Positions 26,901-64,000 of a stretch of DNA of 64,000 bases are shown piece by piece. The translations under genes were made by a program, and so were the position numbers. The stretch's first letter is position 1, and each line of letters begins with the position of its first letter. The DNA is from Lichenostomus cassidix (lineage: Eukaryota > Chordata > Aves > Passeriformes > Meliphagidae): positions 4,288,128 through 4,352,127 of the forward strand of contig CM039202.1 in NCBI GenBank assembly GCA_008360975.2. The letters run 5' to 3'. The notes beneath the pieces are model-generated. The model ran no database searches. It was given only the letters and a program-made list of their open reading frames with translations, and was not told where the DNA came from.

Positions 26901-28944
26901 GGTTGGATTGGAAGATGTGAGAGAAATACTGAAATGGCAGAAATTTAAGCCAAATTTCCCCCATTTGATGCAGAACTTCTGAACGGGCACAGCAGAACAG
27001 CACAGAGCTGCCAACACTACCTGGCAAAGGTCAGCCTGTGCCACTTCAGTGCTGCAAACCTGAATTTTTGCAGGTGGAATGATTTCAGTTTTGCATCACT
27101 AAACCACAGTTACCATAACTGTACTTGGCAATCTTTATCCCATTATTTATTTTTTTCAATAGCACAAAATGAGAACAGCACCTCCCTTGTGTGTGCCTTC
27201 ACTCCTGTTCCTGAGCAGAGACAAGCACAGCTGCTCAGGTGAGCAACTGCTCACCACTGCCTGCAACTGGTTTGCCACCAACCCTTCAATAAACTTCTCC
27301 ACGCTGAAGAAAAGGATATGTAAAGAAGCTTTAAACCACAATGCAGAGCCTCTTCACACTAGAAACCTGCTGCTGGTAAAGGGTGCCCAGGCCTGGCAGG
27401 AGATGGGAGCAGAACAGAGCTTTGGGTTTCTCTCCTGGCACCTCCCTGCCCTGCAAGACTCAAATGACTTCCTCTCAGCCTCTTCTCACAGCTCATCACT
27501 TTGAAACTGCAAATGTTAGAGGAAAAGCAATAATGCTTTTAACTTCATTAATTAAACAAACAGAGGCTGACAAAGGCCCCATGGCAGCTTGAATAGCCAC
27601 ATGTGCCCCTGGGTAATTAAACATGAATCAAAAAACTTGCATTTGCCACATGGAGTAATGGATACCTGGAATTGTTTAGTTGAAAAATGTTTTTAACGTA
27701 AAACGTGTTGGTGCAAAAAGGTATTGGCAAATTATTGGACATTACTGAAGCATTATCTCATCCTCCTTGAACTGAGGGGAATGTGGAAGAAAAAACATAG
27801 AGGGAAATGGCCCAAGGGCATTTGCTCAGTTGGGCAGAGCCAGGTGTTAATAATGCCATGGTTGTGTGTTTGACCCCTGTGTGGGCCATTCACTTAAGAG
27901 TTGGATTTGATGGCCCCTGTGGGTCCCTTTCAACTCAGTCTATTCTGCGATTCTGTCATAATTATGTTTCTTCAGGTTCTGTTTGTTTGTTTTTATTAGG
28001 AAATAGTCTGGTCCTCCAAAGTAAAGCCTAAGAGTTATCCAAAATTCCACTACACGTATTTCTGTGTATTTTCTGGACTGTGCTCTGATGCCAAAGGAAG
28101 AATACATTACAAATGCCATGGGGATCAATAGTGAGAAGGCATTAACAGAAAGCTGTACTTGGTTAAGATCATAATTTGAAAATATTGCACTCGAATATTG
28201 TATTTGAAAATACACTTTGAACAGCATGAAAAAATAAGTCTTGCCTTATTTCAAATACCACTTAAGGTATCCATTTAAAATATCAATCAGCTGATTGCAA
28301 ATGATGTGTGTCACTATGAGCATAAAGAAAATGATGCACTGAAATTATACTTGGTGCTGCCCCAACATTAAAGACACATCTTTCCCAAAAGCCCTACGGT
28401 CTCCAGAGCAAAGGACAAGGACTCTGTCTCACCAGTGGTGGGGTCTGGGCAGCCCTGCCACAGCTGCTGATTTCCAAGGCCATCCTCAGCAAAAGGCCTT
28501 TTCCCCAGCGCAGTTCATGCTCTGTACCTGGCCAAGACATTTCACACTGGCTCTGAAGATGCTCCTTTCTATCCACTTCTCCCAGAGATGAACAGATGAA
28601 CAGCTCTTACCTTCATTTTTGAAGCTCCTGATGATATTTGCAGAAGGCATTGATGTCCTGTCTGTAGCAAACCTGTTGTAGAGCTCTAGCATATACTCAG
28701 GAGGGTCCACCTTGGCCGACTCGTGCAGGGGGATGTCAGAGAGGTTCAACGTCTTCAAAAACTCATTTTTCATGTTCCGGAGCAGCGTGTTGAAATCAAC
28801 CCCATCTTGCTCAGAGAGGATCTCGTCAAAAAGAGGCACATCTTCCTCCAAGGAAGAGTGCTCCAGGCTCAGGATGGGACTGCAGGCTGCAAGGTGAACC
28901 AGGAGGGAGAGCACAGCGCACAGCTGGAGGATGACAGAATCCAT
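23983..28944 (-). CDS. BMP10: BMP10, bone morphogenetic protein 10 precursor
   Basis: Two coding exons on the minus strand: 28944-28611 and 24926-23983. They are joined in phase 1 (GAAG|GTAAG donor, CCAG acceptor) and predict about 425 aa against 424 in human. The start chosen is MDSVILQ, which opens the signal peptide ([20 protein letters not shown]). An in-frame ATG ten codons upstream is less likely because family members begin at this point. The propeptide follows with DGVDFNTLL and [13 protein letters not shown] furin-type RIRR site precedes the mature ligand ([20 protein letters not shown]), which carries all seven cystine-knot cysteines and ends SECGCR. BMP10 is a secreted heart ligand that signals through ALK1 and BMPR2 in trabeculation and vessel maturation. 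The 3.7 kb intron shows no other gene. The gene appears intact. Confidence 0.97.
24927..28610 (-). other. BMP10: BMP10 intron
   Basis: Single 3.7 kb intron with clear donor and acceptor. It contains a SINE at 27814-27957 on the + strand. Otherwise it is unique sequence with nothing I can assign. Confidence 0.85.
27814..27957 (+). mobile_element. tRNA-derived SINE with CR1 tail (TguSINE1-like)
   Basis: The 5' part looks like a tRNA-Ile-derived head: an A-box-like GCTCAGTTGGGCAGAGC, an anticodon-loop-like TTAATAATGCC and a degenerate B box GTGTGTTTGACCCC. It runs directly into a CR1-type 3' tail, GAGTTGGATTTGATGGCCCC then GTGGGTCCCTTTCAACTCAG. This composite matches my memory of TguSINE1, a SINE mobilised by CR1 in passerines. 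It is not a functional tRNA gene, because the acceptor stem does not close. The family name needs a library comparison. Confidence 0.75.
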
Positions 28945-29007
28945 GGCTTCGCCTGAGCCTCCAACCGCACTCAACGAGCTCTGGCTCTAGTGTGGGCTCA
29001 GTGGCGG

Positions 29008-42113: not shown

Positions 42114-45100
42114 TTAGTTGGGAGCTGCACTGCAAGACATGCAGCAGCCCCACAACAGATTTGCCCCTGAGGTGCTGCATCCACAAATTTTCCACGAGCT
42201 GGACACCAGCCATGGAGGTACTGTGAGAGTGGATGGAGAGCTGAAGTTTTATTTACCAAACAACAAACACAGTGGTTAAAATGCAAATATTATTTATATA
42301 TATATATATATATATGTATATAGCTATATAGGTATATTCCTCACAGGCTACAATGAGACTATGAACTAACATTAAAACTAGAAACAATATTCTTCCATTT
42401 GTGAGTACAGGAAGGGCAGGAATGCTACTTCCCTAACTCAAAATTAATTGGCAGGTAATGAAGGATTTAGGCTTGTTTCAGGGTCCTCAGAACACAAAAA
42501 ATGTATTCCTGGTTTTAATTAACAAGTTTTGGATCACCAAGAACCTGCAGCCTGTGAATGCAATTAATCTAAAAGTACAGCTTCACCATGTGATAAAATG
42601 CTCTTTTATTGGATAGCAGATGGTGTAGCCAGGAGTCTGATTTGAAAAAAACAAACTGCAGACCTGGAGCAACTTTCCTCCAAAGGAGTGTCTTGCCTTT
42701 TGGCAGCCATTCACAGCTCCAATAAGCAGTAAATATTCAGTCTTCATCCCCAAAATGCATACCCCATCCGAGCCCTGGTAGGAAGGCTGTGAGAGTTCAA
42801 CTCTTCCCTGGGATGTGCAGCAGAGCAGGCAGGTGGCACCAGCACTGCCCCATCCTGTGCTTCCATCAGCTCCTGGCACCCCAAGCTGTATGGGAAACTC
42901 AGCAAGTGCTCATAGCTCTTTGTGCCCTGCCATTGTGTGAAAGGAAAACTTTATTCCTAGCTACAAATTCTTTATGGCTGGGACAGTGTCTTCTATTCAG
43001 GCTTGGAAAATGCCCAGAACAAAAATCTCTCTGACCCACTGCACTTATTCCAACTGCTACACATTTCCACTGGCCCTGCAGAATTCAAGCTGCTTTGCAA
43101 GTGTTGGTAATGTGGATCTGCTCCCTCCCTTTATCACCATTCACCTGTTTGCTCCCTCTCCCCAGCCATCCTACATAAGGTGAGCCAGCACCTGGATGCT
43201 GATCCCAAAGTGAAGTTCTCCACGGGAAAAATATATTCTGTTTCTGTTTCTTCACTTTATGAAGCATAAACCAATGCCTGGGCCATGTTGCTGCCCCAGC
43301 ATAGGAATGGAAGAAAGGGAAATGTAAGGCCCACTGTAATTGTTTTCTGATTTTGGATGAAAAAACAAAGCATTTTATTTATTTATTAAAGCATTATCTT
43401 TATTTGTATATCATAGGCTTGTTATACATCAAAGCTTTGGATGAGCAAGTTGAGCTTTGTACCCAAGTTCTGTTCCAGCTGGAGAACATGGTTACCATCA
43501 CTAAAACATGCAAAGAAACATGCATTTCCTTGTAACTGCAATGTCAAGATCCAGTTGCGATGAGCTCTTCACAGATTTTAAAGCCCAAAATGCTTGGAAT
43601 TCCGGCACTGGCACAGCCATCAACATCCCCTAGTGCTAAAAAAACCCCAAGAGAATGAGGATGGTATCAGTATCAGTATAAGTATCTCATTATCAGATGA
43701 GGTCCCTGTATCCAACTAGGAAAAAAGTCTTAAATACACAAATCTCAATCCCCAGTTATGGTCCTATTCAAGGCCTCTGTCTCAAAACTGTGCAAAACAT
43801 TTGTGGTGTAACTCAATGGGAAGAAATGTTTGTACAGCACCAGGGTACCAGGAGAATTTAGGTTAAAAAGGTAGGAAGGTGCCCTGGGAAAGAACCATAG
43901 TGTCCTGATTTGTAACTTACGTTCGGTGGCTACGAGCTGGTAGAGAGGCAGCCCTGTGCAGAGCTTTTCAATGTGTTTGCCATAGAGAACCCAGTCTTTG
44001 AAACGTCCCAGCCTGGAACTGCCAGCTTGGAACTGAGCCCACACATTATTCGGAGAGTATACGTCCTTCATGGTCTGAAAGGCAAAGCTTAGACACATCA
44101 GAAATGTAGCTTTAGCTTCACTCTGCTGGGACACCTGTAGAGAAGATTCCCAAACCTAAAGCCACCTTCCTTTGCCTCACAAAAAAAAGTTCAAAGTTGA
44201 AGTCTGGGGCTTCAAAAACCCCCCAAACAAACAAAAAAACCCCAAAACCAAAAAAAACCCAACCAACCAACCAACCAACCAACCATCCAACCAACCAACC
44301 AACCAACCAACCAAAAAAACCCAACAAAAAACCCCCCAGTCAATCTATTCAGTAACAAAATTCACTAGGTATTAGCTGATGGGCTGGCACAAAATGAGCC
44401 AGAGTTCCAGTTCACCTCCAGGTAATACTTCCAGTCTCCTTCTGAAACCTCAGCCTGAATAGGGAAGTCAAAATGTGGTCAAAGTAAATCAATCTCTATA
44501 CTCTCTTCTGGGAAAAAAAAATAAATTTCAAGCTATGTCAAGGTCAAAATATCAGCAAGATAATGAGGGAAAGTTTGCCTGAACTTATATTGTGATCACC
44601 TCAAAATAGTCAAATTACATCAGTTCCAAGGACAAGACAGCTTGAGACACCTCAACAATCCCCTATAAAACTGCAAGGGGGCTGTGATTCCAGCTCCATC
44701 ATTGTTAAGACAGCATAAGTCATTCCTGAACTGTTTTAGGGGCAGAGTGGAGGGTTTCCCTCACACCACACTGCTCCCATCCCTTCCTTTCCAGCAGCAA
44801 AGGTTCCCCACACAGTCACCTGTCTCTCAAAAGCCAGACGTCCAATGTCTTCCAGGTCTGGGATGTATTCCTGCTTTATTTTCATGATAAAGCAGGCATT
44901 TCGTGAAAATAACCTGGTCGCAATATACCCCTGTAATGGAAAGAATTAAGGTTAAATAATTAGAAATTGCTAACACTGACATTAGTTGATGCTCTCTACT
45001 CTTTGAGGCAAACTAGAAGAAACACCAAGTGGCTGCAGAGGTTGCTGCTGTGGAATGATTGGATTTCCTTTGTCATCTTTGGGGAATGGAATCAGCCAAT

Positions 45101-46664
45101 CCTGGTGCCTGTCCCTAAGACTGGAAGCATCATTTCTGACAGACTTTTGCTGCCCATGAGTGCTGGCAGCCAATCCTCACCTCCAGCCCCATGGAGGTCA
45201 GCAACCTCCTCACTTCCAGGAACTGCCACCACAGGTTTCATTACAAGTCTTTTAAACTGACCCACCATATGGACAAACAAGTAGATGGCCAAGGAGGAGG
45301 AAAGGTGATGGGAGACTTCAAAGAAACTGTGTTTCTTTGTGATGTGGTGAGAACACACTAAAATAATTTCTGATTTTAAAAACTTCCTCAGGGATTAATT
45401 TGAGGCAGACTCTTGGATTTACTCACACGTGTGTAGTCAAAAATGGTATCAGAGGAGTACACGCCAGAACGGACATGGACATCAACGATGTGCTCCTCAT
45501 TGTGGATGGTCATTGTTCCAGTGACATAGTTGCTGACAGGATCTCTCAGGACAAAGGTCTTTGGTAAAAAGCACAAAGTCATTGTTCATCATCTGACTTC
45601 CATCTTCAGCAGGTGCAACAACCCCCAATGCTTTCTGCTTTATGTAAATACTAAATCCCTTAAGAACCTGTGAGCAGTCTTAGGAGGCTCTTGAGGTGGA
45701 GATGAGTTATCAAACAGGCCCTCCTGCAGGCTGAGGAGAAACTGCATGGGACATCCCATGTCATTCTGGCCAGCAGCAGGGACTGGCAGGAGACTGCACC
45801 AGTCTCCAAATGTTTGGTTGAGCTAGGGCACCCCTGTCCCCCTGACTTCTTGTTACATTGCACCAGCACAGAACCACCTCTTTGGCTTCACTGTCACCTC
45901 TGGCAGAAGCTCTTTTTCTCTACACTTGGCAATAAGTACCTTGTTAGTTTCAGATTTTTCTGTGGTTTTCTTCCTGTTCTATTCACCCTGCCCAGGGATC
46001 CAACACATTTTAAATGCTCATGTGCAGGACAAGACTCATCACTCTACTTACGTCCAATGCAGAAGTCTGAGCCCAAAAGATGCCCAGGCAAATGAGGACT
46101 GCAGTCTGTAAAAGGAATCAGAATCTTGTAAATCAGAATAATGTAAAATCTCACTCAGCAGAAACAGCAGAGAGTGCCATAAAAAAATCCAGTCCATGAA
46201 CTGAGGGGAGGAGCTGTAGCATCAGTTTGAAAAGTTACCCATTTAGCATGTCTATTAGTTGAAAACAACTACAATTCCTCATTGTAAAGTTTTTGCTGTC
46301 AGGCTCTCCTTTGCTGTAACTGAAAAAGCAGAATAACATTGAATTTCTTCAGTTTTCAGATGCCATGTTGCTTCTTGATTTGCCTCTACAACTGCAATTA
46401 TTAAATCATAACTAAATCCCCCATCTGAAGTGTAACCAATTCTGCATTCTTTGCTCAAATGAGGCTTCCACTGACTTCACTGATCCAAGAAACGCAAGTT
46501 TCCCTCTGAACCACCCAAAGAAACAACACACAGATCATATTATTGTACCACTGTATTGTACCACTTACTTGAGCATCTTCTTCTTTATCCCTTTCTTTTC
46601 AAAAATAAGGAACTAAGAGTATTAAAAGTTCAACAGAAATGGAGATACTCACAAATCTCTTCAT
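42114..46664 (-). CDS. GKN2: GKN2, gastrokine-2 (BRICHOS protein), six coding exons
   Basis: Minus-strand coding exons: 46664-46653 (MKRF), 46105-46052 (signal peptide TAVLICLGIFWAQTSALD), 45558-45427, 44930-44820, 44074-43921 and 42220-42114 (stop TAA). They predict about 188 aa; human GKN2 has 184. The phases are 0,0,0,0,1, as in the other gastrokines here. BRICHOS hallmarks are present: Asp in DTIFDY, Cys in RNACFIMKI and Cys in IEKLCTGLPLY. The exon-5 match to human (KYTWVKYN / WFLLGSPIEKLC) and the minus orientation beside BMP10 identify GKN2. It is secreted by gastric surface cells. In human it partners TFF1 through a Cys just before TTIFDY; here that position is Tyr (VYSSDTIFDY). The last exon is Cys-rich (KICGCSTSG, WGCCMSC), five Cys against two in human. 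Exons 3 and 6 rest on weaker acceptors (CCAAAG; CACAG). Confidence 0.88.
42293..42332. repeat. (TA)n microsatellite in last GKN2 intron
   Basis: About 13 TA units plus TATATAG words, some 70 bp upstream (minus strand) of the GKN2 exon-6 acceptor, so close to the branch-point region. Confidence 0.9.
44256..44314. repeat. (CCAA)n microsatellite in GKN2 intron
   Basis: About 13 CCAA units with one CATC interruption, flanked by A/C-rich runs from 44221 to 44335. It lies between GKN2 exons 4 and 5. Confidence 0.92.
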
Positions 46665-51019: not shown

Positions 51020-54000
51020 ATGAAGTTCCCTGTAAGTATACGTATCACTTTCTCATAAAACTCTTATGGCAGGGCAGCTTTTAAATGGTTTTGAGCTTTT
51101 CCTGGCACCAAGCAAACTCATAGTGATTTCTGCAGGGCTCACAGAGTGAAAATGCCAACAGGGTGGGGACTGCAGGGGTGAAATCTCCCTTTTGGCAGGG
51201 ATGGAACTCCACATGCCTAATCAAACGTGAAAGAGAGAAGTGCTCTGTTCCAGGGGTGACACACACACGGGAGATGTCCACAGGACAATATTCTCTCCTT
51301 CATGACTCAGAGGCAAATCAAGAGTCTCGGCAATTCACATAAAGTTAGAGCTTAGCTGTTTGCTGAGAGCATGAGACATGAGAGATTTCAAGTGCAGGAC
51401 AGTGACACTGGGGTATTTGGAGCAGCCTGAAATCAGTGCAGGAAAAATTCTCAAGCATTACTGTCAAATACTCTGCATCAGACTTGGACATTTTTCATCA
51501 AAATCCTCTTCTGAAGGAGATGAAATCTGGGACCAATTCAATGTTCGAGGGATTGTCTTCAAGAAAATAATTGTTTACAATAGTTATCCCAAAAGAATTT
51601 TTCATCATAGCAATAGGAAATCTCTCCAAAAGAGATCAGCAGTATTTTGGACAAACCTGAGCAACAGCAAGCATGTGACTTCTTGTCTATAGATTTATGA
51701 ATGGGTAACAAATGTTTGATGTCCCAATTTTCCGAACAGAAATGCTTGTGCCTACCCTTAGACTATTAGTCTTGTATTCAGAAGAGGAGGTCACTATGAG
51801 GACACTGAGGTTCCCTTGCTGCTGTTTTCCAAGTACAGAGCTGGACTGTGCACTCGTATTCCAACTCTTCACAAGAGGTGCAAATGGACATTTCTCAGAT
51901 CTGATCTATGTCTGAAATCAAAAGCTCGAGGTGAAAAGCTCAGCTTTGCAAAGCAAATATTTCAGAGTACCTTTTTCCAAGGAGTTACTGAACTGAGGCT
52001 GGGCAAGTTTTAGAACCCACAGTGTTTCAATGACCTTCCTGCCGGGCAAGGTGCACTGCTGGGGCTAAGAGCCATTTCTATGCATGTGTTCTGTAAACTC
52101 ATCAAGGATTAATTCTCCTACATATTTAAATCCTCTTCAGCTGGTCCCCCCTTCAGAAAGTGCTGAGCCAGTACACAAAGTAAACAGAAAGTCAAAATTA
52201 TTTTAAGACAGCAAATAATTTGATGCAAGCTAAGCAGCATGGTGTTCAAGTGTTTTGAATTTCAAATTTTCATTTCAGATTGTGATTGCTTCTCTTCTTG
52301 GAGTTTTCCTGGCTCCTGCTCTTGCCAACTACGTAAGTATAGAGCTACACATAGCTGTTCACTGCTGCCACAGGAACTACTGGCTTTAGCTTGTACCTCT
52401 GAGAAATGTGTTTCTGGAAATGAAGCTGCATTTTTAAGTCTGATATTTAGAAGAAAATGGCATTTTAATTTTTCTATGATAACGAAGAAATTATTTCCTT
52501 GCTTGCTGTACTAAGGGAAAAAGACAGTTACCATACATGGAATCAGGAGATTCTGTCCTGAGATGAACATAAACACTGAAAATAATGGTGTGGAGAGCAA
52601 CAAGTATTAACATGGTTGATCTGACCACAAGATACAGTAGAATGCTGTAAATAATCTGGTGCCAGCAAGATCCTGATGGGGAAAGAATAGTAAAGCATTA
52701 TTTTGATATACTTAGAAAGTAAAGGCTTCCCAGCCTTCATTCTGAGCCAAGAAATTTTCTCCCCTTTAACCTGATCTCCAAGAGCAATAATTTTCCAAAA
52801 CGTGGCTACTAGAGCAAATGCTTTATTGAGTGAAACACCAGTGGGAATCTGGGAAGCTAAATCCTTACCTCCTTTAATCTTTTCCAAAAATCAGAACATG
52901 GAGGAAAACTTTAGCGGGGAGCCCAGTGAAAACTCAGACCACTCTGACACCAGGGTCAGCACCAACCCAAAGGAGGGCTCTGAGGCCTGGAAAACCATCT
53001 GGGACTTCAAGACTGTAAGTAGCTGCCACCATGGCACAAGAAAAATGGTGAAAGAGACCAACGTTTTCTAAAAAACACCAAAGCTCCAACAAAACTTCAT
53101 CATATTTTAGAAGAGATGTTTAAACACATCCTCCTTCAGCCATGGCACTGTTTCTGCTGTACTGTGTGCTGCACTGAGCTTTTCAGCAGCAAATTCCTTC
53201 ACCTGCCCTAAGCATGAGACCACATCATACACGTGGCATTACTGGAGGAGGCAAATACCTTTTACCAAAGTCTCTCATCAGCCTCCGTGACATATTTACC
53301 TAAACAATATAATTGAAAGGACCAATATTTTTCTTTCCTTATGACTATTTGCATTGTAGAAAGCTTTTCTTTTAACCAGCGCCTCTCTCTAGCAATCCAC
53401 TTCTCTTTCCCTGTAGTTCCTTTTGTTCCTGTTGGCAACAAAAAGGGGTTTCTCATTTAATTTTAATAGGGCTACGTTGCAACCAAAGTGTTTTCAAAGA
53501 ACACCTGCATCATTGCTACAACAAGCAAGAGGTTTTGGCTTGGCAAATGGTTCCCTGCACCACCTCAAGGAGACAAGGTAGGAAGGTGGATGAAAGTGGA
53601 GCAAAACCCTATTGATTGTCAGTGAAAAGCACTTGTTAGTACACACACAGGAGAAAAGTCTCCAAGAACTGAAAAGAACCTTCTCAGCAGGGCTGATTCA
53701 CTCTAACATTTCATTCAAAAGTTGCATTGCCCGTAAATAACCCCAATTACTGTTCAGCCTGGCCTTGGACACTTCCAGGGATGAGGCAACCACAACTTCT
53801 CTTGGCAACATGCGTCAGGGCCTCACCATCCTCACAGAGAATTTCTTAGTATCCCATTTAACCCTGCCCTCTGGCAGTGGGAAGCCATTTCCCCTTGTCC
53901 TTTCACTCCAAGCCCTTGTAAATAGTCTTGCCCCATCTCTCCTGTTGGCCCCTTCAGGTACTGGAAGGCCACAATTAGGTCACCCGAAGCTTCTCTTCTC

Positions 54001-54929
54001 CAGGATGAACACTTCCAATTATCTCAGCTTTTCCTTATAGCAGAGCTGCCCCATCCCTTTGATCATCCTGGTGCCTCCTCTGGACTCCCTTCAGTAGCTC
54101 CAGGTCCTTCCTGTGCTGGGATCCCAGGGCTGGAGTAGCTTTGCAGGTGGGATCTCACCTGAGCACGGCGGAGGGGCAGAATCCCCCCTGCTCTGCTGCC
54201 AATGCTGGGGATCAGCCCAGCACAGTTGGGTTTCTGGGCTGTTGGTGCACACTGATGGGGCATGTCCTGCCTGTCACCCACCAGGCCCCAAGTCCTTCTC
54301 GGCAGGGCTGCTCTTGATATGTTCATCCCCAGTTCTGAACTCCAGTTTTGGTTTCCCTAAATGCTGCTTTCTGGGTTTGTTTGATGCTCAGGGACCTGGG
54401 CTTTACCAATTGCCACCCAGAGAGAATCGCATGATTATCTCAAGGTTCAGACTCCAAAGCTTGAGCCCATTTGGAAAACGCATCCAAGCTCTGTGCAGAG
54501 GAATTCCCTCCTACCTTGCTTACCCAGCTCCTGGTGAGTTTGCTACTGACAGCCTTTGTGTTCCAAAATAAGGACAGGTTAACAGAATTACAAAAAAAGA
54601 TTCAAGCAAAGGTGAGCATGTCACTTATTGAAGTCCTATGACTTTTTATACATCAGTGTATACATATATAAGGAAATGCAGCAGGTCTATCACTCTTCTG
54701 CGTACAATGACCTGGAGCCCAGCCATTCTTAGGAAGGTCCTGGGCTCTAGTTCTTGACATAAGTCTGGAATTTTTAGGCAATTAGTAGGAAGCATTTCAG
54801 CTGCATTTTTATTTTCTTATTTTCTCAGTCCAAATCTAATCAGTTTTCCCTTTTCTTTCAGGATCAAACTTTTTAAGAGGATCAAACTCCTTAAGAGGAT
54901 CAAACTTCTTAGAGCGAGATATTTCATGA
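51020..54929 (+). CDS. GKN1: GKN1-like gastrokine (BRICHOS protein), six coding exons with atypical C-terminus
   Basis: Exons: 51020-51031 (MKFP), 52279-52332 (IVIASLLGVFLAPALANY, very close to the human GKN1 signal region), 52895-53014, 53470-53577, 54392-54533 and 54862-54929 (stop TGA). They predict about 167 aa; human GKN1 has 185. Exon 3 ends AWKTIWDFKT, keeping the BRICHOS Asp, and has an NFS glycosylation sequon. Exon 4 (GYVATKVFSKNTC) gives the first BRICHOS Cys. Exon 5 (FGKRIQALCRGIPSYLAY) gives the second. Exon 6 does not match the usual Cys-containing tail. It consists of three 18-bp repeats encoding GSNFLR-like units, then LERDIS. That exon has a good acceptor (TTTTCTTTCAG) and correct phase, and I found no conventional last exon before the next gene. 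The exon-6 assignment is the least certain part. The protein is presumably secreted gastric mucosal protein like its mammalian counterpart. Confidence 0.82.
53752..54343 (-). mobile_element. CR1 LINE 3' region inserted in GKN1-like intron 4
   Basis: About 590 bp in antisense: CAGCCTGGCCTTGGACACTT, CCCATTTAACCCTGCCCTCT, TCTCTCCTGTTGGCCCCTTC, CTCCTCTGGACTCCCTTCAG, GAGTAGCTTTGCAGGTGGGA. It fills most of the 814-bp intron between exons 4 and 5 and includes the distal 3' ORF2 and UTR region, but lacks the very 3' terminus. Confidence 0.9.
54861..54914 (+). repeat. Three 18-bp tandem repeats forming GKN1-like exon 6
   Basis: Consensus GGATCAAACTYYTTAAGA, three times, overlapping the splice acceptor. 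Each unit encodes GSN(F/S)L(R/E). Units 2 and 3 each begin with an AG-GATC junction resembling the true acceptor, so in-frame skipping of six residues is possible. Confidence 0.9.
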
Positions 54930-55289: not shown

Positions 55290-56885
55290 TTTGAGCAATT
55301 ATTCATTATTTCAAGAAGAAAATAGTGCAACATCTACTACATTAACCATATTTAAGATAACATGAGATCAGTATGACTGATTTTTATTTTGACTTCTAAT
55401 TAACATAGTAAGACTTAGTAATGTAATGCAATATGAAATGGTTTACTTTAAAAATAAATAGTACCATGCAATATGGCCAATTGCAAACAGACAGATGCAC
55501 TATTGCTCTGATCAGCCCAGAAATCGAACTGCAAATAACAGAATTAAGAAATGTATTAAATGAAATCTGGGGTTGAAAACAGTTGTTAGGCCAAATGTAA
55601 GGCAAAAAGACTGAGCCTACTTTCTTCATCTGAAACATCACTAACTCGAGTCTGTCTAGAAAACACCACATCTTCACATTCCCTCCTCACTCAGGGGCCC
55701 TTTCCTTGCTGTTTGAAAGCAGTTACTCTAAGAGACACTTTACCCACTCAGGAACACCCCACAGTTACTCTAAGGAAAGGATGCAACAGCCTGTTCTGGT
55801 CAGGAAAAACCTTTTGGGGTCTCTAAGGGTCAACTGATATGAAAACCAAAGCAAAACTGCACCCAAAAATATTTTAGCACCTCCAAAGAAAAGCAACCGT
55901 AGGGTTGCAGTATTTAAACAAAAGTTCCTGTCTGACGTGCCTGGGGTTTCTGAAGAGACTCTCCTCTCCTTTTCCAACTTGGCATTGCATTTTCCTTGAG
56001 GTAACAGAGGTACAGCCCTCTTCCCTTATCCTACTGGGAGTCACTGGGAATGTCTCTCTGGGGGCCGTGGAGCCCTGTCACAGATGATGATTCCACACGC
56101 TCCCAGGCAGCTGGGATGTGGCCTGAGCAGGATCTGTGGTGCAGATCTTGCAGCCCTGTGGTCACCGCACAGCGCAAAGAGCCTGGCAGCCTCGCAGGCA
56201 AACAGGGATACCCTCTGCCCACTCCAACCAGACCCTCCCTGGTCTCCATGCAGGGAATAGCAGTGTGCAGATGCTTCTGGCCAGGGACAATGCCTGCTGC
56301 AATACCATCCCACTTAAAGCCACAATTCCAACAGCAGAGGTAAATACTGTCAGCAAGGCCCAGCTGCTCTCAAAACTGCTTTAACTTCCTGCACTTAGGA
56401 GCAAAAATCTGTCAGGAATCGTAAATGAATAAAGCTGGAAAGGTGTAAATGTCTCAGGGCTGCTCTGCCAAGTCCATGGAGGCACAGATGCCTCAGCCCT
56501 CACTGCCATATTTTAGTGGGTGCTATGGCTACCCGATAACATACAGTGCATTTTGGAAGGTAAAAAGGCTTTCACTTATTTTGTCAAATGCAAAGCTTTT
56601 TATATTTTTGTTTAAGCCCAAGGATATCTCTGATCTTAAGTTTAAACTGAATTTTCAAAAGTAAATACTACATGTCAGGAAAATACTATAAACATATTTA
56701 ATTTTTCACTGCAAATGGATTCCTATTTGATAACTATCAGACTCCAGCAGGTCAAAATGGTCAAAAGTACAATCCCCATGTTTATCAAATAGTTACAGCA
56801 GGAAATAATTTTATGGGGCATGTGACAGGGAAACAAATGACAAAATAATTTTATTGCAACAATCAGCATTTCCATGGCAAATTCT
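55290..56885. other. Intergenic region between GKN1-like and tandem-BRICHOS genes
   Basis: 1.6 kb unique sequence. I looked here for a conventional gastrokine last exon (G-[ST]-C...C pattern) and did not find one. No mobile element is recognised. Confidence 0.65.
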
Positions 56886-56892
56886 GAAAACA

Positions 56893-56899
56893 TATAAAA
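56893..56899 (+). promoter_or_regulatory. TATA box of tandem-BRICHOS gastrokine gene
   Basis: CATATAAAAGG, 63 bp before the MNLP start codon. No comparable promoter occurs before the second BRICHOS block. Confidence 0.8.
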
Positions 56900-56955
56900 G
56901 GTGGAGGGTTCACATTGCTCTTTCTACCTGCAGGAGCATCAGCTCTGCAGTCAAG

Positions 56956-59900
56956 ATGAATCTGCCTGTGAGTATGCATGCTTTTCTTCCTTATAAACTG
57001 AAACTTTGATTCAAACCCATTCCCTTATCCCTCAGAAGTGCTTCTGCCTTTCTAGAGCACAAAGGCTTTCTCTGGGGACATTTTGCTCCTCCAGAATGAG
57101 TAACTCAGCCCCTATTACCCAAATGAGCTGATGAGGTAAGGATTTTTTCACAGCTTGGCTGTACATTATTCAGAAAATAGGAAGCCTAATCCATGTCCAT
57201 TTTTGTCAACGCTTTTGCACAACTGGAGCAATGCACTAGTGGATCAACCCCTTCCCTGAAACGCCAGGGAGAAGAAATTCTCCTCAATCTTGTCAAATAC
57301 CTGTGTGTTCCTGCACAAGTGTGAGAAACAACTCCTGATTCAGCTCTTGGAAGAGCAAGTGTGAAATGTGTCTACTTTGCAGCATGCTGGGGTAAAGCAA
57401 GGGTGACTCCTTTTTAGGGCACTATTGCAATCCCAGGATGAAAGCAAAAAAGGATCCAAGGAGGACCCTTAAACATCAGATTAGGAGAAGGGAAGGAGGA
57501 TTCTCACAACGGGATTTATCAGACAGACCTGCAGTTACATTTGATATTTGATTTTCCTTTCAGATTTTGACTGCAGTCCTTCTTGGACTTATCTTAACTC
57601 CAGCCCTTGCTGATTTCGTGAGTATGGTGAACAAATTCCACATGCTTATCTACTCTGTATTCCCTAGTTCATGAGATACCCTTGATTCTTTTCCCATCAC
57701 TTTGGAGGAAAACAATTAAAATCTTCTCACACAGATCAAACTCTAAATGCACCAGATGACAGCTGACAGATGCAGCAAAGGATTCATGGAATCCATGAAA
57801 AGAATTCTTAACAGCCTCTGGCAAAGGGCACAGCCTTGATTGTGGGTCCTTTTGAAAATACTGATAGCACGGCTGGCACATTGTGGGGGCAACATTTCTT
57901 CTACAACAGAAGGGATATTTAAAAAGCATTAAAGAAAACACTGACTAATATGGCCATCTAAAAATGCTCCATTGTGTTTTCCAGTCTCAGCAGACAAATG
58001 AAAACCAGCAAATCATCTTTGGTGGAGACACCCATATAACTATCACTGGTATCTCACAAAGCGTGAAGATCAATAGCCAAACACAGGTGGCAATTATTGA
58101 GCAGAAGAGCAAAAATTTATCATGGAAAACTGTCTGGAACTACAACACGGTGAGTGCCAGAGTGCGTGCTTTCTCACAAAGTGAATAAGGACACTAGATT
58201 TTCATAGACCTGGCCAAAGGAAGGAGCTGGTTTCTGTATTTGAAAAGTTCAAGTAAAATATTAGGAATACAAATTCTCAGCATTAATTATTGTTTTGATA
58301 CAGACTTTGTCCCAATATTAACAGTTGGAAAAAACTGAATTGTGAGTGCTCGCTCATTTTATTCCACAGGGCGTCATTGCAACCAAAGTCACGCAGCAGA
58401 ACACCTGCTACATTTCCATCATGAACAGAAGTGAGATGCCCAGCTTTGATAATCTGGCCCGACTGGCACAAGAGAGCAGGGTAAGATTCCAAAGGAGTAG
58501 TAGTGTCCTGAGCCTGGACTTCATCGGGCCCTTTGTTAATGTGCTTTTACCTTCTGGAGAGGGTGAGGTTGTCACCAGCAGCAGGATCTCCTTTCTCTAC
58601 ACAGTACTGCAGATTGGGAATTTGTCCTAGGAATGCTTTGCCAAAAGAAGAAAGGGGCTGCATCATTCCCTCCCCCATCTCCCCTTTCTTTGAGGACGTT
58701 GAGCTCTGCAGCCTGCCGGACAAACCCTTGCTCTGAGGAGCCCTTCAAGGGCCTTAATTCTTTTGGCATGCCAAGATCTCAAAGTCCTTTGCAGGCCATT
58801 CAGCACCAAACTGCTTTGGTCAGCTCAGAACATTGCATTGCAGCCGTGCTTGGCCAGACATCATTCTCCTTTGAGGCGCGAGAGAGCGTCTCCCTACTGC
58901 ACAGCCTTTCCCCCACATTGATGGGATGAGGCACAGCAGGAGCCCTGTGGCCCTAGCTGAGGAAAGAGCAAGAGAGCAGCAGGAAGCTGAGGGCTTGGGA
59001 GGAAGCACAGGCATGCAGGGACAGTGGCCAGGAGACAAAGCAGTGCAGGAGGAAAGCAGTGGCAATTCATTTGAACCAAAGCCCTCGGGAGCTGTTCAGA
59101 AAGACCTTTCCCACTAGAGCAGCCAGGGGTCTCCGAGAGGTCCTAAGCACTGCTTGCAAATAGTCCGTGAGCAAACGTATCTGCGCGGGCTTGCTGCTGC
59201 CCTCTGGTTCCAGTTTAGAGTGGGCTGTGGGAAGAGACTTCTACTGCCAGCCTTCCAGCCGACAGCCTGAGTGTCTCTGAGGGGTGAGAGCAGGGACTGA
59301 GCAAATGCTTTGGAAGGAGCTCATGTTCAACACAGCTGCCGCACTCCTCCTTTTCAGCACGTTCCTTCCGCTGCCACTTCTCCTCGGGCTCCCTGCCCCT
59401 TTCCTCCCTTAGAACGCGGTGCCTTTGGAGCTGCTTTCAAGGCTTGCTAGTGGTTCCACAGGCACCCAGGGGATGAAAAGGTGTCCCCAAATGCAGTTGG
59501 TACTCAAACTCCAAGCCCTGAGTTGTTATTCCAGAGCTGCGAATGATGCCTAACCGGAACCAAATCACAGCACTGATCAATGCATTTATTTGATGTTTAG
59601 AACCTGATCGGTCTTGGAAGACCTACCAGGAAGATCACTTTTGTTGCCCATGGATTGGTCAACAACCTCAACTCCTACGGCGCCAACATCATCACTATGT
59701 GCAGCGGACTCACCACCTACATGGCATATGAAGTTCACGGTGAGTGCAAGCAAGGGAATTCTGAGGGTTACTTACATGGCACATTTTCCCTTTGGGAATG
59801 ACTAAGGAAGTATGCTGCTCTTCCATCTTGAGACACACAGAAACCAAGGCATGCAGGGTTTACACAAAGTTTCTGGCATCTCCAGGGAGTAGGATTGGAA

Positions 59901-62900
59901 AAGGGTGGTTTCACAGCTGCCATGGCTAAACTGATGAAAAGAATTCCATCACTGTTCTGAAATGTTTAAGGAGGAGTCAGGGAGGGATAAGAGAGTTTCA
60001 GACCATTTGGAGCTCCTCGGCAACGCCCAGGCAAAGAAAATGGGTCGTCCTAAGGACCGCTGTCCTTCGGCTCAGAGCTGGCTGACGACTTGACCGAGGC
60101 CCTTGCCAAACACTTGGGCTTCACAGCACCAAGCCAAGCGGCTTTCTTCCCTGTAGGTTTTTCCCAGGGGCAACAGTCGCGTTGCCCAGGGCTTGAATGA
60201 CCTACACTTCCTAGCAGTCTTGCAGAGCCTCACAGCAAACACATGGGACTGGCCCCATGAATCAGCAGCAGCCTAACCGTGTAATGCCCAGCCATGGGGA
60301 CTCACAGGAGCCAGTGGAATAGATCCCCGATTTCTGCACAAGAAAGCCCAAAGGGTGGTCAAGAGCACGGCTTGGTGGGCATTCCTTGCTGGGCTTGGTG
60401 GGCATTCCTTGCTGAGCCACAGAGCTGGTGCTCTTTGGAGACTCCAAGGGAATTTATCCCTCGTACAGCTCAACCTTTCCAAGTGCAGCAATTCTGCAGA
60501 ACCTGGCTCCCTCTGAGCAACAGCAACACCACCAGCACTCTCTTGCAGAGTGGCAGCCAAGGTCTTAGGCATTAGCTCATGGGGTTTGTTTTTGTTCCTT
60601 TCTTGCTTTTCAAGGACTCCAAGTGAATCTGGGATCATGCATTACCCTCGATGTCCTGAGAGTTGTGGACCTGAGGTACTGCACTGCCAATGGCAATGGC
60701 AATTGGAATGACAATTGGAATAACAACTGGAATGGAAATGGCAATTGGACCGGCAACTGGAATGGCAATTGGAATGGCGATTGGACCGGCAATTGGAATG
60801 GCAATTGGACCGGCCAGGTGAGAACACCTTCGCCCTTACCTTTCTTGAACCAAACGTGGGGCCTCTAAAGCCAGCCCTGATGCCCTTCTCACCCGGCATC
60901 TCCTCTTTCGAGGGGCTCCTGCTTGAGGGTGCACATGCTGAAACAGAGCAACGGCTGGGCAGAGGTTTCCGTCCGAGACCCAGAGCGTGGGCTAACTGTG
61001 GCCAGCTCTCTTGCACTCGTCCACCTCTAAAGGCGCCAGATGACAGCGGTCAGATGCAGCAGTGGATCATTGAATCCATGGAAAGAATTCTTACGGCCTC
61101 TGCCCAAGGGCACGGCCTAGATTCTGGGTCCTTTTGAAAACACTGAGGGCACGGCCGGCACTTCCCGGGGGGGCCGCGTTTCTACTACTCCAGCAGGGAA
61201 TTTTCGGATGCTTTGGGGACATCACTGACTCCCTTCAAATGCAAAACGTCTCCTTTCCCTTGGCTTTTTAGGTGCCGCAGTTTCCCGGTGGTAACCTCGG
61301 CAACAACACGCAAGTCATCATTGGTGGCCAGTCCCAAATCGTGACCCTCAAGAGGCTGTGGCGCGTGGCAATTATTGAGCAAAACAGCATCAGCGGGTCC
61401 TGGAAAACCATCTGGAACTACAACACGGTGAGTGGCAGGAGCCTGCCTGCTTGTTCAAAAAGCGTACAAGGACGCCGGCTCCTCGTACAGCTGGCCCGGT
61501 GACGGGGCTGGTTGCTTTATTCTCAACACTGGGAGTCCACGACGTGGGGTAGAAACTCTCAGCATTTGTTATGGTTTCCATCCTGACATTATGCCAATGT
61601 TAACAGTTGGAAAAAACTGAATTGTGAGTGCTCGCTCATTTTATTCCACAGGGCGTCATTGCAACCAAAGTCACGCAGCAGAACACCTGCTACATTTCCA
61701 TCATGAACAGAAGTGAGATGCCCAGCTTTGACAATCTGGCCCGACTGGCACAAGAGAGCAGGGTAAGATTCCAAAGGAGTAGTAGTGTCCTGAGCCTGGA
61801 CTTCATCGGGCCCTTTGTTAATGTGCTTTTACCTTCTGGAGAGGGTGAGGTTGTCACCAGCGGCAGGATCTCCTTTCTCTACACAGTACTGCAGATTGGG
61901 AATTTGTCCTAGGAATGCTTTGCCAAAAGAAGAAAGGGGCTGCATCATTCCCTCCCCCATCTCCCCTTTCTTTGAGGACGTTGAGCTCTGCAGCCTGCCG
62001 GACAAACCCTTGCTCTGAGGAGCCCTTCAAGGGCCTTAATTCTTTTGGCATGCCAAGATCTCAAAGTCCTTTGCAGGCCATTCAGCACCAAACTGCTTTG
62101 GTCAGCTCAGAACATTGCATTGCGGCCGTGCTTGGCCAGACATCATTCTCCTTTGAGGCGCGAGAGAGCGTCTCCCTACTGCACAGCCTTTCCCCCACAT
62201 TGATGGGATGAGGCACAGCAGGAGCCCTGTGGCCCTAGCTGAGGAAAGAGCAAGAGAGCAGCGGGAAGCTGAGGGCTTGGGAGGAAGCACAGGCATGCAG
62301 GGACAGTGGCCAGGAGACAAAGCAGTGCAGGAGGAAAGCAGTGGCAATTCATTTGAACCAAAGCCCTCGGGAGCTGTTCAGAAAGACCTTTCCCACTAGA
62401 GCAGCCAGGGGTCTCCGAGAGGTCCTAAGCACTGCTTGCAAATAGTCCGTGAGCAAACGTATCTGCGTGGGCTTGCTGCTGCCCTCTGGTTCCAGTTTAG
62501 AGTGGGCTGTGGGAAGAGACTTCTACTGCCAGCCTTCCAGCCGACAGCCTGAGTGTCTCTGAGGGGTGAGAGCAGGGACTGAGCAAATGCTTTGGAAGGA
62601 GCTCATGTTCAACACAGCTGCCGCACTCCTCCTTTTCAGCACGTTCCTTCTGCTGCCACTTCTCCTCGGGCTCCCTGCCCCTTTCCTCCCTTAGAACGCG
62701 GTGCCTTTGGAGCTGCTTTCAAGGCTTGCTAGTGGTTCCACAGGCACCCAGGGGATGAAAAGGTGTCCCCAAATGCAGTTGGTACTCAAACTCCAAGCCC
62801 TGAGTTGTTATTCCAGAGCTGCGAATGATGCCTAACCGGAACCAGATCACAGCGCTGATCTTACTGAATGCTGTTATTTGATGTTTAGAACCTGATCGGT

Positions 62901-64000
62901 CTTGGAAGATATACCAGGAAGATCACCTTTGTCGCCAATGGATTGGTCAACAACCTCAACTCCTACGGAGCCGACATCATCACTATGTGCAGCGGACTCA
63001 CCACCTACATGGCATACGAAGTTCACGGTGAGTGCAAGCAAGGGAATTCTGAGGGTTACTGATGTGGCGGTTTTCTTCCTTGGAGAATGACTAAGGCAAT
63101 ATTGCTGCTCTCCCACCTGAAGACGCACAGAAAGCAAGGCCTTCAGCTGTTGCTCAAAGGGTTTGGCATCTCCGCGGACCAGGACTTGAACAGGGTGGTG
63201 TCACATGCGCCAGAGCTGACCCAAAGCAAAGCAAAGCAAAGCAAAGCAAAGCAAAGCAAAGCAAACCCTTACAGCTCCTTCCTGGGAGCTTAAGGGGGCT
63301 CAAATATGGGCCCAGAGTTTTTCTGCCCACACGGAGCTCCTCTGCAATGCCCAGGCAAAGAAAATGGGTCGTCCTAAGGACCGCTGTCCTTCGGCTCAGA
63401 GCTGGCTGACGACTTGACCGAGGCCCTTGCCAAACACTTGGGCTTCACAGCACCAAGCCAAGCGGCTTTCTTCCCTGTAGGTTTTTCCCAGGGGCAACAG
63501 TCGCGTTGCCCAGGGCTTGAATGACCTACACTTCCTAGCAGTCTTGCAGAGCCTCACAGCAAACACATGGGACTGGCCCCATGAATCAGCAGCGGCCTAA
63601 CCGTGTAATGCCCAGCCATGGGGACTCACAGGAGCGAGTGGAATAGAGCCCCGATTTCTGCACAAGAAATCCCAAAGGGTGGTCAAGAGCACGGCTTGGT
63701 GGGCATTCCTTGCTGAGCCACAGAGCTGGTGCTCTTTGGAGACTCCAAGGGAATTTATCCCTCGTACAGCTCAGCCTTTCCAAGTGCAGCAATTCTGCAG
63801 AACCTGGCTCCCTCTGAGCAACAGCAACACCACCAGCACTCTCTTGCAGAGTGGCAGCCAAGGTCTTAGGCATTAGCTCATGGGGTTTTGTTTTTGTTCC
63901 TTTCTTGCTTTTCAAGGACTCCAAGTGAATCTGGGATCATGCATTACCCTCGATGTCCTGAGAGTTGTGGACCTGAGGTACTGCACTGCCAATGGCAATG
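56956..64000 (+). CDS. Tandem multi-BRICHOS gastrokine-like gene with Asn/Gly/Trp linkers (3' end beyond window)
   Basis: Exons: 56956-56967 (MNLP), 57564-57617 (signal peptide ILTAVLLGLILTPALADF). Unit 1: 57985-58149, 58370-58480, 59601-59739, 60615-60817. Unit 2: 61272-61427, 61652-61762, 62889-63027, 63917->64000. All junctions are in phase (0,0,0,0,1,0,0,0,1), giving about 390 residues so far. Each unit has exon 4 GVIATKVTQQNTCYISIM (BRICHOS Cys 1), exon 5 NNLNSYG...IITMCSGLTTY (Cys 2) and exon 6 GSCITLDVLRVVDLRYC, matching the last exon of human GKN1. Exon 6 then runs into an N/G/W repeat instead of a stop, and its CAG|GTGAGA donor is in phase with the next exon 3. Both exon 3s end WNYNT, with Asn for the conserved BRICHOS Asp. 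Unit 2 has no start or signal exon. If the exon-6 donor were unused, the frame would end at 60868 (TAA), but no AATAAA precedes 61272. It is presumably a secreted gastric-lining protein. It is not a copy of GKN1, GKN2 or, as far as I know, a described gene. Confidence 0.82.
57735..61020 (+). repeat. Intragenic tandem repeat, unit 1 (exons 3-6 and introns)
   Basis: It starts in intron 2 at CTCTAAATGCACCAGATGAC and ends after exon 6. It aligns with 61022 onward, offset 3287 bp around exon 3 and 3282 bp around exon 4. It is diverged from unit 2 up to about 58310, then nearly identical through exon 5 (59739) apart from scattered substitutions. The first part of intron 5 diverges again, and near-identity resumes at about 60015. 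A 22-bp duplication (GGGCATTCCTTGCTG twice, 60370-60414) is specific to this unit. Confidence 0.9.
60689..60814 (+). repeat. Asn/Gly/Trp-coding minisatellite in exon 6 of unit 1
   Basis: AAT-GGC-AAT-TGG-type 12-bp units with 18-bp variants. It encodes 42 residues made only of N, G, W, T and D, with nine Trp spaced every four residues (once six). Two NWT tripeptides are potential N-glycosylation sequons. It follows the Cys of RYCTA directly and is bounded by the CAG|GTGAGA donor. Confidence 0.95.
61022..64000 (+). repeat. Intragenic tandem repeat, unit 2 (truncated by window)
   Basis: Begins CTCTAAAGGCGCCAGATGAC, homologous to intron 2 of unit 1 but more GC- and CpG-rich. It contains exons 3'-6' and ends at the window edge inside the second Asn/Gly run. 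It has its own (AAAGC)n array at 63222, so it is not a simple assembly copy of unit 1. Confidence 0.9.
63222..63265 (+). repeat. (AAAGC)n microsatellite in intron 5 of unit 2
   Basis: Eight to nine AAAGC units, absent from the matching intron of unit 1. Useful to tell the two units apart. Confidence 0.95.

Follow-up and report, generated by a model that had tools for sequence, protein, structure and literature searches.

A 64,000-nucleotide stretch of the passerine bird Lichenostomus cassidix (GenBank assembly GCA_008360975.2, contig CM039202.1, positions 4,288,128 to 4,352,127 of the forward strand), here called the window, holds the first part of a gene, gene 1, that very probably encodes a predicted secreted protein in which six BRICHOS units follow one another. 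The product would be a multi-unit member of the gastrokine-1 (GKN1) family, and the gene would owe its form to tandem copying followed by the change of a stop codon into a splice donor. The gene structure, the homology of the former stop codon and 3′ untranslated region (3′UTR) and the tracts of gene conversion are read from the sequence itself; transcription as one messenger RNA is probable. A genome search of the host assembly placed the window at C24:4288128-4352127 and revealed further BRICHOS exons downstream of it. Ten further 10-kb pieces were read, and coordinates above 64000 continue the window numbering along the host contig C24.

Structure of Gene 1

A reading made from the window alone (the sequence-only reading) had proposed one promoter, one start and one signal-peptide exon followed by two exon 3-6 blocks in phase, and this splice model holds base by base. 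All features of gene 1 lie on the plus strand. A TATAAA box at 56893-56898, the sole TATA-like site in 56800-56960, would be the single promoter. It is followed by the coding part of exon 1 with the start codon (56956-56967, MNLP) and by exon 2 (57564-57617), which encodes the signal peptide ILTAVLLGLILTPALADF, assigned by its likeness to relatives. Unit 1 consists of exon 3 of type A (57985-58149), the BRICHOS exons 4 (58370-58480) and 5 (59601-59739) and exon 6 (60615-60817), the tail of which contains a coding 12-bp minisatellite (60695-60809) that yields an Asn/Gly/Trp-rich linker. Unit 2 has exon 3 of type B (61272-61427), the BRICHOS exons 4 (61652-61762) and 5 (62889-63027) and exon 6 (63917-64000), which is cut by the window end and ends at 64089 in the host contig. 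Every intron is GT-AG, the phases agree, and the exons in the window give 391 codons without a stop. Both blocks match Pfam BRICHOS (PF04089) over positions 2-91 of 91, with 70.4 and 70.6 bits (cut-off 25). At the junction of the two units, the donor at 60818 ranks in the top 0.2% of 2991 GT sites in the window and the acceptor at 61272 in the top 0.3% of 4880 AG sites, according to a simple matrix.

The suggestion that the array might be longer than the window was borne out when the contig was read past 64000, since six units were found in all. As assembled, gene 1 is complete, with 26 exons, 25 introns that are all GT-AG, 1166 amino acids and no internal stops; there is no assembly gap inside 56956-77669. 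The full predicted protein contains six BRICHOS stretches (E 1.7e-121), and one signal peptide serves all six units: by tblastn, the only signal exons in 50-97 kb are exon 2 of gene 1 and that of an upstream gastrokine at 52279. Unit 1 is of type A and units 2-5 are of type B. The terminal unit, unit 6, is distinct and ends in YCSGNGQVWKP and a stop (77526-77528), with ATTAAA 141 nt further on, at 77669. Exon 6 measures 203, 173, 161, 167 and 161 bp in units 1-5, respectively. As the exon 3-6 module has phase 0 at both ends, any number of copies can follow one another with the frame intact. AATAAA and ATTAAA are both absent from 57929-75255, where 4.3 would be expected and where 3 of 300 simulations gave zero, a statistic that is weaker than it looks as the repeats are near-identical.

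Origin of the Inter-Unit Introns

The two blocks in the window are joined across a 454-bp intron. It had been described as a hybrid, in which sequence of the kind found after exon 6 gives way at about 61020 to intron-2-like sequence, and as the scar of an intragenic tandem duplication; the sequence supports both statements. Its 5′ half (60818-61008) is a putative former 3′UTR that is similar to terminal 3′UTRs, namely to that of gene 1's own unit 6 (77.8% over 81 bp, E 1.5e-12) and to that of the single-unit GKN1 further downstream (E 2e-4). Its 3′ half (61009-61271) is intron-2-like and includes the acceptor (78.8% over 208 columns, E 1e-44), with the similarity starting at about 61009-61025. 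The intron had also been said to contain no promoter, start, signal exon or polyadenylation (poly(A)) signal. There is indeed no TATA-like site, no signal exon detectable by tblastn and, in 60818-61272, none of 12 poly(A) hexamer variants. The part of the claim that concerned the start was wrong, as an ATG opens a short frame at about 60880, to which 4 of 94 gene models from other birds align from their first Met; no signal peptide is encoded at this place. The tblastn search gave no separate signal exon that could feed 61272, which settles this point in part, as judged from DNA.

Two related genes of the same contig serve as references. One is a second array, which has a signal exon of its own and starts at 96913; its first unit belongs to another type, inner units follow, and the terminal one ends in YCHGNIKA and a stop. 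The single-unit GKN1 at 135847-138877 has a signal exon and the exon 3-6 plan. TATA-like sites lie at a like distance ahead of all three genes (56893, 96850 and 135784). The hybrid make-up is found in each of the 14 inter-unit introns examined: all match the 3′UTR of the last gene-1 unit (E 3e-9 to 4e-13), all match intron 2 in their second half (E 2e-27 or better), and none contains AATAAA or ATTAAA. Their matches to the GKN1 3′UTR range from E 4e-7 to 0.37, and four control introns gave a single 11-nt match (E 0.30). The three terminal exons all carry AATAAA or ATTAAA, 137-152 nt past the stop and in aligned places. Judged by these similarities, the inter-unit intron is a former 3′UTR joined to intron-2 sequence.

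The ends of exon 6 were aligned column by column. The single-unit GKN1 reads GTG TGA AAA and the last unit of the second array GCC TGA AAA CCT, and in each case TGA is the stop codon; unit 6 of gene 1 reads GTC TGG AAA CCT TAA. Inner units read CAG/GTG AGA, followed by AAA CCG or ACA CCT. In the window, this donor CAG/GTGAGA lies at 60815-60823, with the exon/intron break after CAG, and its AGA stands in the TGA stop column of GKN1 and of the last unit of the second array. AGA is kept in 14 of the 14 inner units examined. Because the inner units have AGA in the stop column and are followed by sequence that matches a 3′UTR without its poly(A) signal, the stop codon seems to have been taken into the donor and to have become a splice site. 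We infer the direction, from TGA to AGA, from GKN1 and the last unit of the second array.

The steps would probably have followed one another in this order. An ancestral single-unit gastrokine would have closed its last exon with a TGA stop, after which came a short 3′UTR and a poly(A) signal. Tandem copying of the segment that reaches from intron 2 to the 3′UTR would have placed a second exon-3 acceptor downstream. A change of TGA to AGA (GTG TGA to GTG AGA) would then have removed the stop and created the donor CAG/GTGAGA, and the old 3′UTR would have turned into the first half of an intron and lost its poly(A) signal. With the exon 3-6 module in phase 0, further copies could add units and leave the frame intact. 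The inner units would be kept alike by gene conversion and unequal exchange, with the first and last units remaining distinct.

Similarity of the Units and Gene Conversion

Blocks 1 and 2 are unevenly alike. They share two near-identical tracts, at 58318-59562 (6 mismatches in 1245, or 99.5%) and at 60025-60698 (5 mismatches in 651 aligned positions, or 99.2%), and have 72.8% identity outside both. None of 2000 shuffles reached the score of the weaker tract. Intronic sites follow the same division, being 99.4% alike within the tracts and 72.4% outside. This is the pattern of gene conversion, and it argues against a doubled haplotype. In the final 44 codons of exon 3, the comparison of units 1 and 2 gives a proportion of nonsynonymous differences (pN) of 0.28 and a proportion of synonymous differences (pS) of 0.60, as expected under constraint. 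A (CAAAG)n microsatellite occupies 63222-63265 in intron 5 of unit 2; its counterpart in unit 1 is an alignment gap, with no such array listed.

In a midpoint-rooted tree of units, inner units mostly group by species or with those of close relatives, and oscine first and last units group by position. Exceptions include the first units of Pithys and Pipra, which fall among the inner units of their own species. Unit 1 of gene 1 groups with the first units of Aphelocoma, Cyanistes and Melozone and with the one unit that a Camarhynchus model has (support 98/92). GKN1 and the array units form the two sides of a fully supported branch.

Homologues in Other Birds

Three protein searches, limited by length and shared words, one of them scoring only candidates that shared most words, returned 94 homologues. 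With a unit counted as full at 126 residues or more, 32 of the 94 have two or more full units; 18 of these 32 have five or more, and the maximum is 13. All 32 are passerine by record name, and the taxonomy was checked for two species. Suboscines and oscines are presumably both among the bearers, which would make the arrays old within passerines. Among the homologues returned, the loon, shearwater, penguin, tropicbird and duck have single-unit proteins only. A signal peptide was recognised by motif in 12 of the 32 multi-unit models, exactly one in each. Proteins named gastrokine-1 are among the homologues, in keeping with sequence kinship to GKN1.

The closest parallels have the same plan. Oenanthe melanoleuca LOC130261889 (P0037) shows, like gene 1, one signal peptide and then tandem units, 13 in number, joined at the same junction (GQ/IPQFPG, compared to GQ/VPQFPG in gene 1). 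Aphelocoma coerulescens P0038 has one signal peptide and 12 units, the first of which groups with unit 1 of gene 1. Both differ from gene 1, with its 6 units, in unit number and in linker length, and P0037 also differs in the type of its first unit. Single-BRICHOS bird gastrokine-1 proteins (Gavia, Calonectris and passerine GKN1) share the signal peptide, the cysteine pattern and the WNY motif with gene 1. They have one unit and, as compared on the GKN1 of the host genome, a TGA stop where the inner array units have the donor.

BRICHOS Domains

The two conserved BRICHOS cysteines are present in both units of the window, as Cys 90 and 148 in unit 1 and as Cys 293 and 351 in unit 2. The conserved BRICHOS Asp is replaced by Asn in all six gene-1 units (WNY), in a column that we take to be that of Asp105 of proSP-C. 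The GKN2-like and WDF-type gastrokines of the window, described below, keep the Asp. A model of the two-unit relative P0010 (nine sequences) shows two folded units and an unstructured Asn/Trp-rich linker, with a predicted local distance difference test score (pLDDT) of at least 70 in 201 of 457 residues. The first seven Foldseek matches of this model are chains of three BRICHOS entries. proSP-C and Bri2 are membrane-bound single-domain precursors. Their BRICHOS domains (PDB 2yad, 8rnu) are among these top matches. Both keep the conserved Asp (PMC9627735), whereas the gene-1 units have Asn.

The sequence-only reading had held that known gastrokines carry one BRICHOS domain each. This is contradicted by the 32 multi-unit homologues and by a 2022 survey, the text of which describes multi-BRICHOS precursors in GKN1 and three other families, with up to 19 domains in one precursor; the family of the nineteen-domain precursor is not stated in that text (PMC9627735). 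Like gene 1, these precursors hold several domains, each with its own C-terminal segment. In the same survey, 68% of 74 multi-BRICHOS domains have Asn where the conserved Asp would stand, and all non-Asp cases are in GKN1. Since the Asp is not strict there, the Asn of the gene-1 units does not exclude membership of the BRICHOS family. The change from Asp to Asn is reported to give a compact state that inhibits fibrils more strongly and protects less well against toxicity, and the Asp to titrate between pH 6 and 7 (PMC9627735). In an acid stomach, the Asp would be protonated anyway, so Asn would cost little there. The main text of the survey gives domain counts, with no gene anatomy and no species named for the multi-BRICHOS precursors. 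What gene 1 adds is the exon-intron structure, the hybrid introns and the putative stop-to-donor change.

Multi-BRICHOS passerine proteins are already in databases and are touched on in one survey, as far as its text goes (PMC9627735). Among the matches listed in the open-access literature, judged by titles and the starts of abstracts, none treats the arrays of passerines or how their genes are built. The present analysis adds the layout of the exons, the make-up of the hybrid intron and the proposed stop-to-donor origin.

Alternative Explanations

Several observations weigh against the interpretation of gene 1 as one six-unit gene with a stop-to-donor origin, and most of them bear on particular alternatives. 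Some are of a general kind. All 94 homologues are gene models. The mean pLDDT of the P0010 model is 57, its best Foldseek E is 0.009, with none at 0.001 or better, and a PDB sequence search with unit 1 gave no BRICHOS chain. Expression of gene 1 in the stomach is assumed by analogy only.

It is unlikely, though worth weighing, that the donor is ancestral and the terminal stops derived, in which case no stop codon turned into a splice site. The GTCTGG of the last gene-1 unit, with its later TAA, could be a decayed donor, and the direction from TGA to AGA assumes that GKN1 and the last unit of the second array are nearer to the ancestral state, in a tree that is midpoint-rooted. Similarity to the GKN1 3′UTR is weak in five introns of the second array (E 0.37), and inter-unit introns match the 3′UTR of the last unit of that array over only 20 bp (E 5e-6). 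However, the single-unit GKN1 and the last unit of the second array both have TGA in the donor column with an aligned poly(A) hexamer, and a donor at that place would serve no purpose in a gene with one block.

Equally unlikely is that the array is partly or mostly expressed as proteins of one or a few units, by read-through of the exon-6 donor or from starts inside inter-unit introns. In 12 of the 94 models the protein ends in VRKP, which is the read-through product of the exon-6 donor as in the second array, and in 4 of the 94 the alignment to the inter-unit intron starts at the first Met, so that shorter products are possible. In the window, reading through the exon-6 donor of unit 1 would reach a stop at 60866-60868. 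There is also a TATA-like hexamer at 74192, in the intron that precedes the last gene-1 unit; tblastn gave no signal exon after it in that intron. On the other hand, the 14 inter-unit introns lack AATAAA and ATTAAA, that of the window has neither a TATA-like site nor a signal exon, and both splice sites of the junction score near the top for the window. The VRKP-ending and intron-starting models of other birds may be mere truncations.

An assembly artefact, in which two haplotypes or repeated reads were joined in tandem and the real gene has a single block, is very improbable. Identity among units B2-B4 of gene 1 is 99.5-99.9% (about 97% for B5 and about 93% for A), which leaves the number of assembled copies open to error. 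The second array contains, at about C24:4399404-4411462, a block of units that is 99.4-99.7% identical to B2-B4 of gene 1. To the left of this block, an exon 6 of 88 instead of 83 bp breaks the frame, and to its right there is a 500-N gap (C24:4410635-4411134) with a damaged exon beside it. The block may reflect a recent exchange between the arrays or an assembly error, and the assembled unit number of the second array is accordingly tentative. In gene 1, by contrast, 27% of the sites outside the two tracts differ between units 1 and 2, the resemblance of the last unit to the rest is only about 79-80%, 56956-77669 is free of gaps, and the same architecture is predicted in 32 of the 94 homologues. 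The exact number of inner B units in gene 1 could nevertheless be wrong. That the blocks are separate tandem genes whose later first exons were lost, with block 2 a pseudogene relic, is just as improbable: gastrokines do stand in tandem here, but the frames of block 2 are open, its splice sites intact and its junction phase-matched, units 1 and 2 show signs of constraint, and the 1166-amino-acid frame runs on to a stop.

Genomic Neighbourhood

The gastrokines stand in tandem here in the order GKN2-like gene, WDF-type gastrokine, two arrays and GKN1. On the minus strand, Pfam TGF_beta and propeptide models match exons at 23986-24951 (111.9 bits) and at 28489-28986 (20.8 bits, under the cut-off), which belong to a TGF-beta family gene that, from the usual locus order, we take to be BMP10. 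BRICHOS exons on the same strand at 44793-44945 (33 bits) and 43748-44155 (21.4 bits, under the cut-off) mark a GKN2-like gene at 43940-45513 (−) with an FDY motif and the Asp kept; its name, GKN2, and the expected gastrokine order of the locus are likewise our assumption. Gene 1 accordingly adjoins a TGF-beta family gene and a minus-strand BRICHOS gene, the position next to GKN2 and BMP10 that marks the gastrokine-1 locus if these presumed names are right. A further gastrokine-type gene at 52246-54580 (+), with a signal exon at 52279 (tblastn), the motif WKTIWDF, exons 4-5 and the conserved Asp kept, lies between the GKN2-like gene and gene 1. Remnants of exons 4-5 of this WDF type recur before the second array (about 91.4-91.9 kb) and before GKN1 (about 134.1-134.6 kb), and so a segment comprising a gastrokine and its neighbour seems to have been copied.

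Two long open frames lie at 6876-8456 (+); the second is coiled-coil-like, with Pfam matches only under the cut-off. From the usual locus order they are presumably ARHGAP25. Beyond the gastrokine cluster, the host genome has BRICHOS matches at C24 1415315, C17 1010479, C12 19619836 and C1 61597180.

Significance

In chicken, GKN1 accounts for 20-25% of gizzard gene counts (PMC6293548), and GKN2/ovocalyxin-21 is reported in eggshell and as not found in that of zebra finch (PMC4666066). We tentatively propose that a single TGA to AGA mutation made a self-extending array module early in passerine history, and that the arrays, with up to a dozen or more units and with conversion even between neighbouring genes, may have become a passerine-wide secreted polymer of the stomach lining. 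A little more speculatively, the gene-1 product might be an abundant secretion of that lining, in which several BRICHOS beads that suppress aggregation, strung on flexible linkers rich in Asn, Gly and Trp, bind clients or one another avidly, perhaps in the protective layer of the gizzard.

One genome holds each stage between a one-domain gene and a tandem multi-domain gene: the single-unit relative with its stop and poly(A) signal, the inner units in which the stop would have become a donor and the 3′UTR an intron, and the terminal units with a stop. The finding draws attention to a family of predicted large secreted proteins in passerines, made up of a chaperone domain under study as an agent against amyloid disease. 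These arrays have Asn at the place where, in the text of the survey, a change of the Asp alters BRICHOS activity (PMC9627735). Natural arrays of 6-13 units may be possible test cases for polyvalent anti-aggregation proteins.

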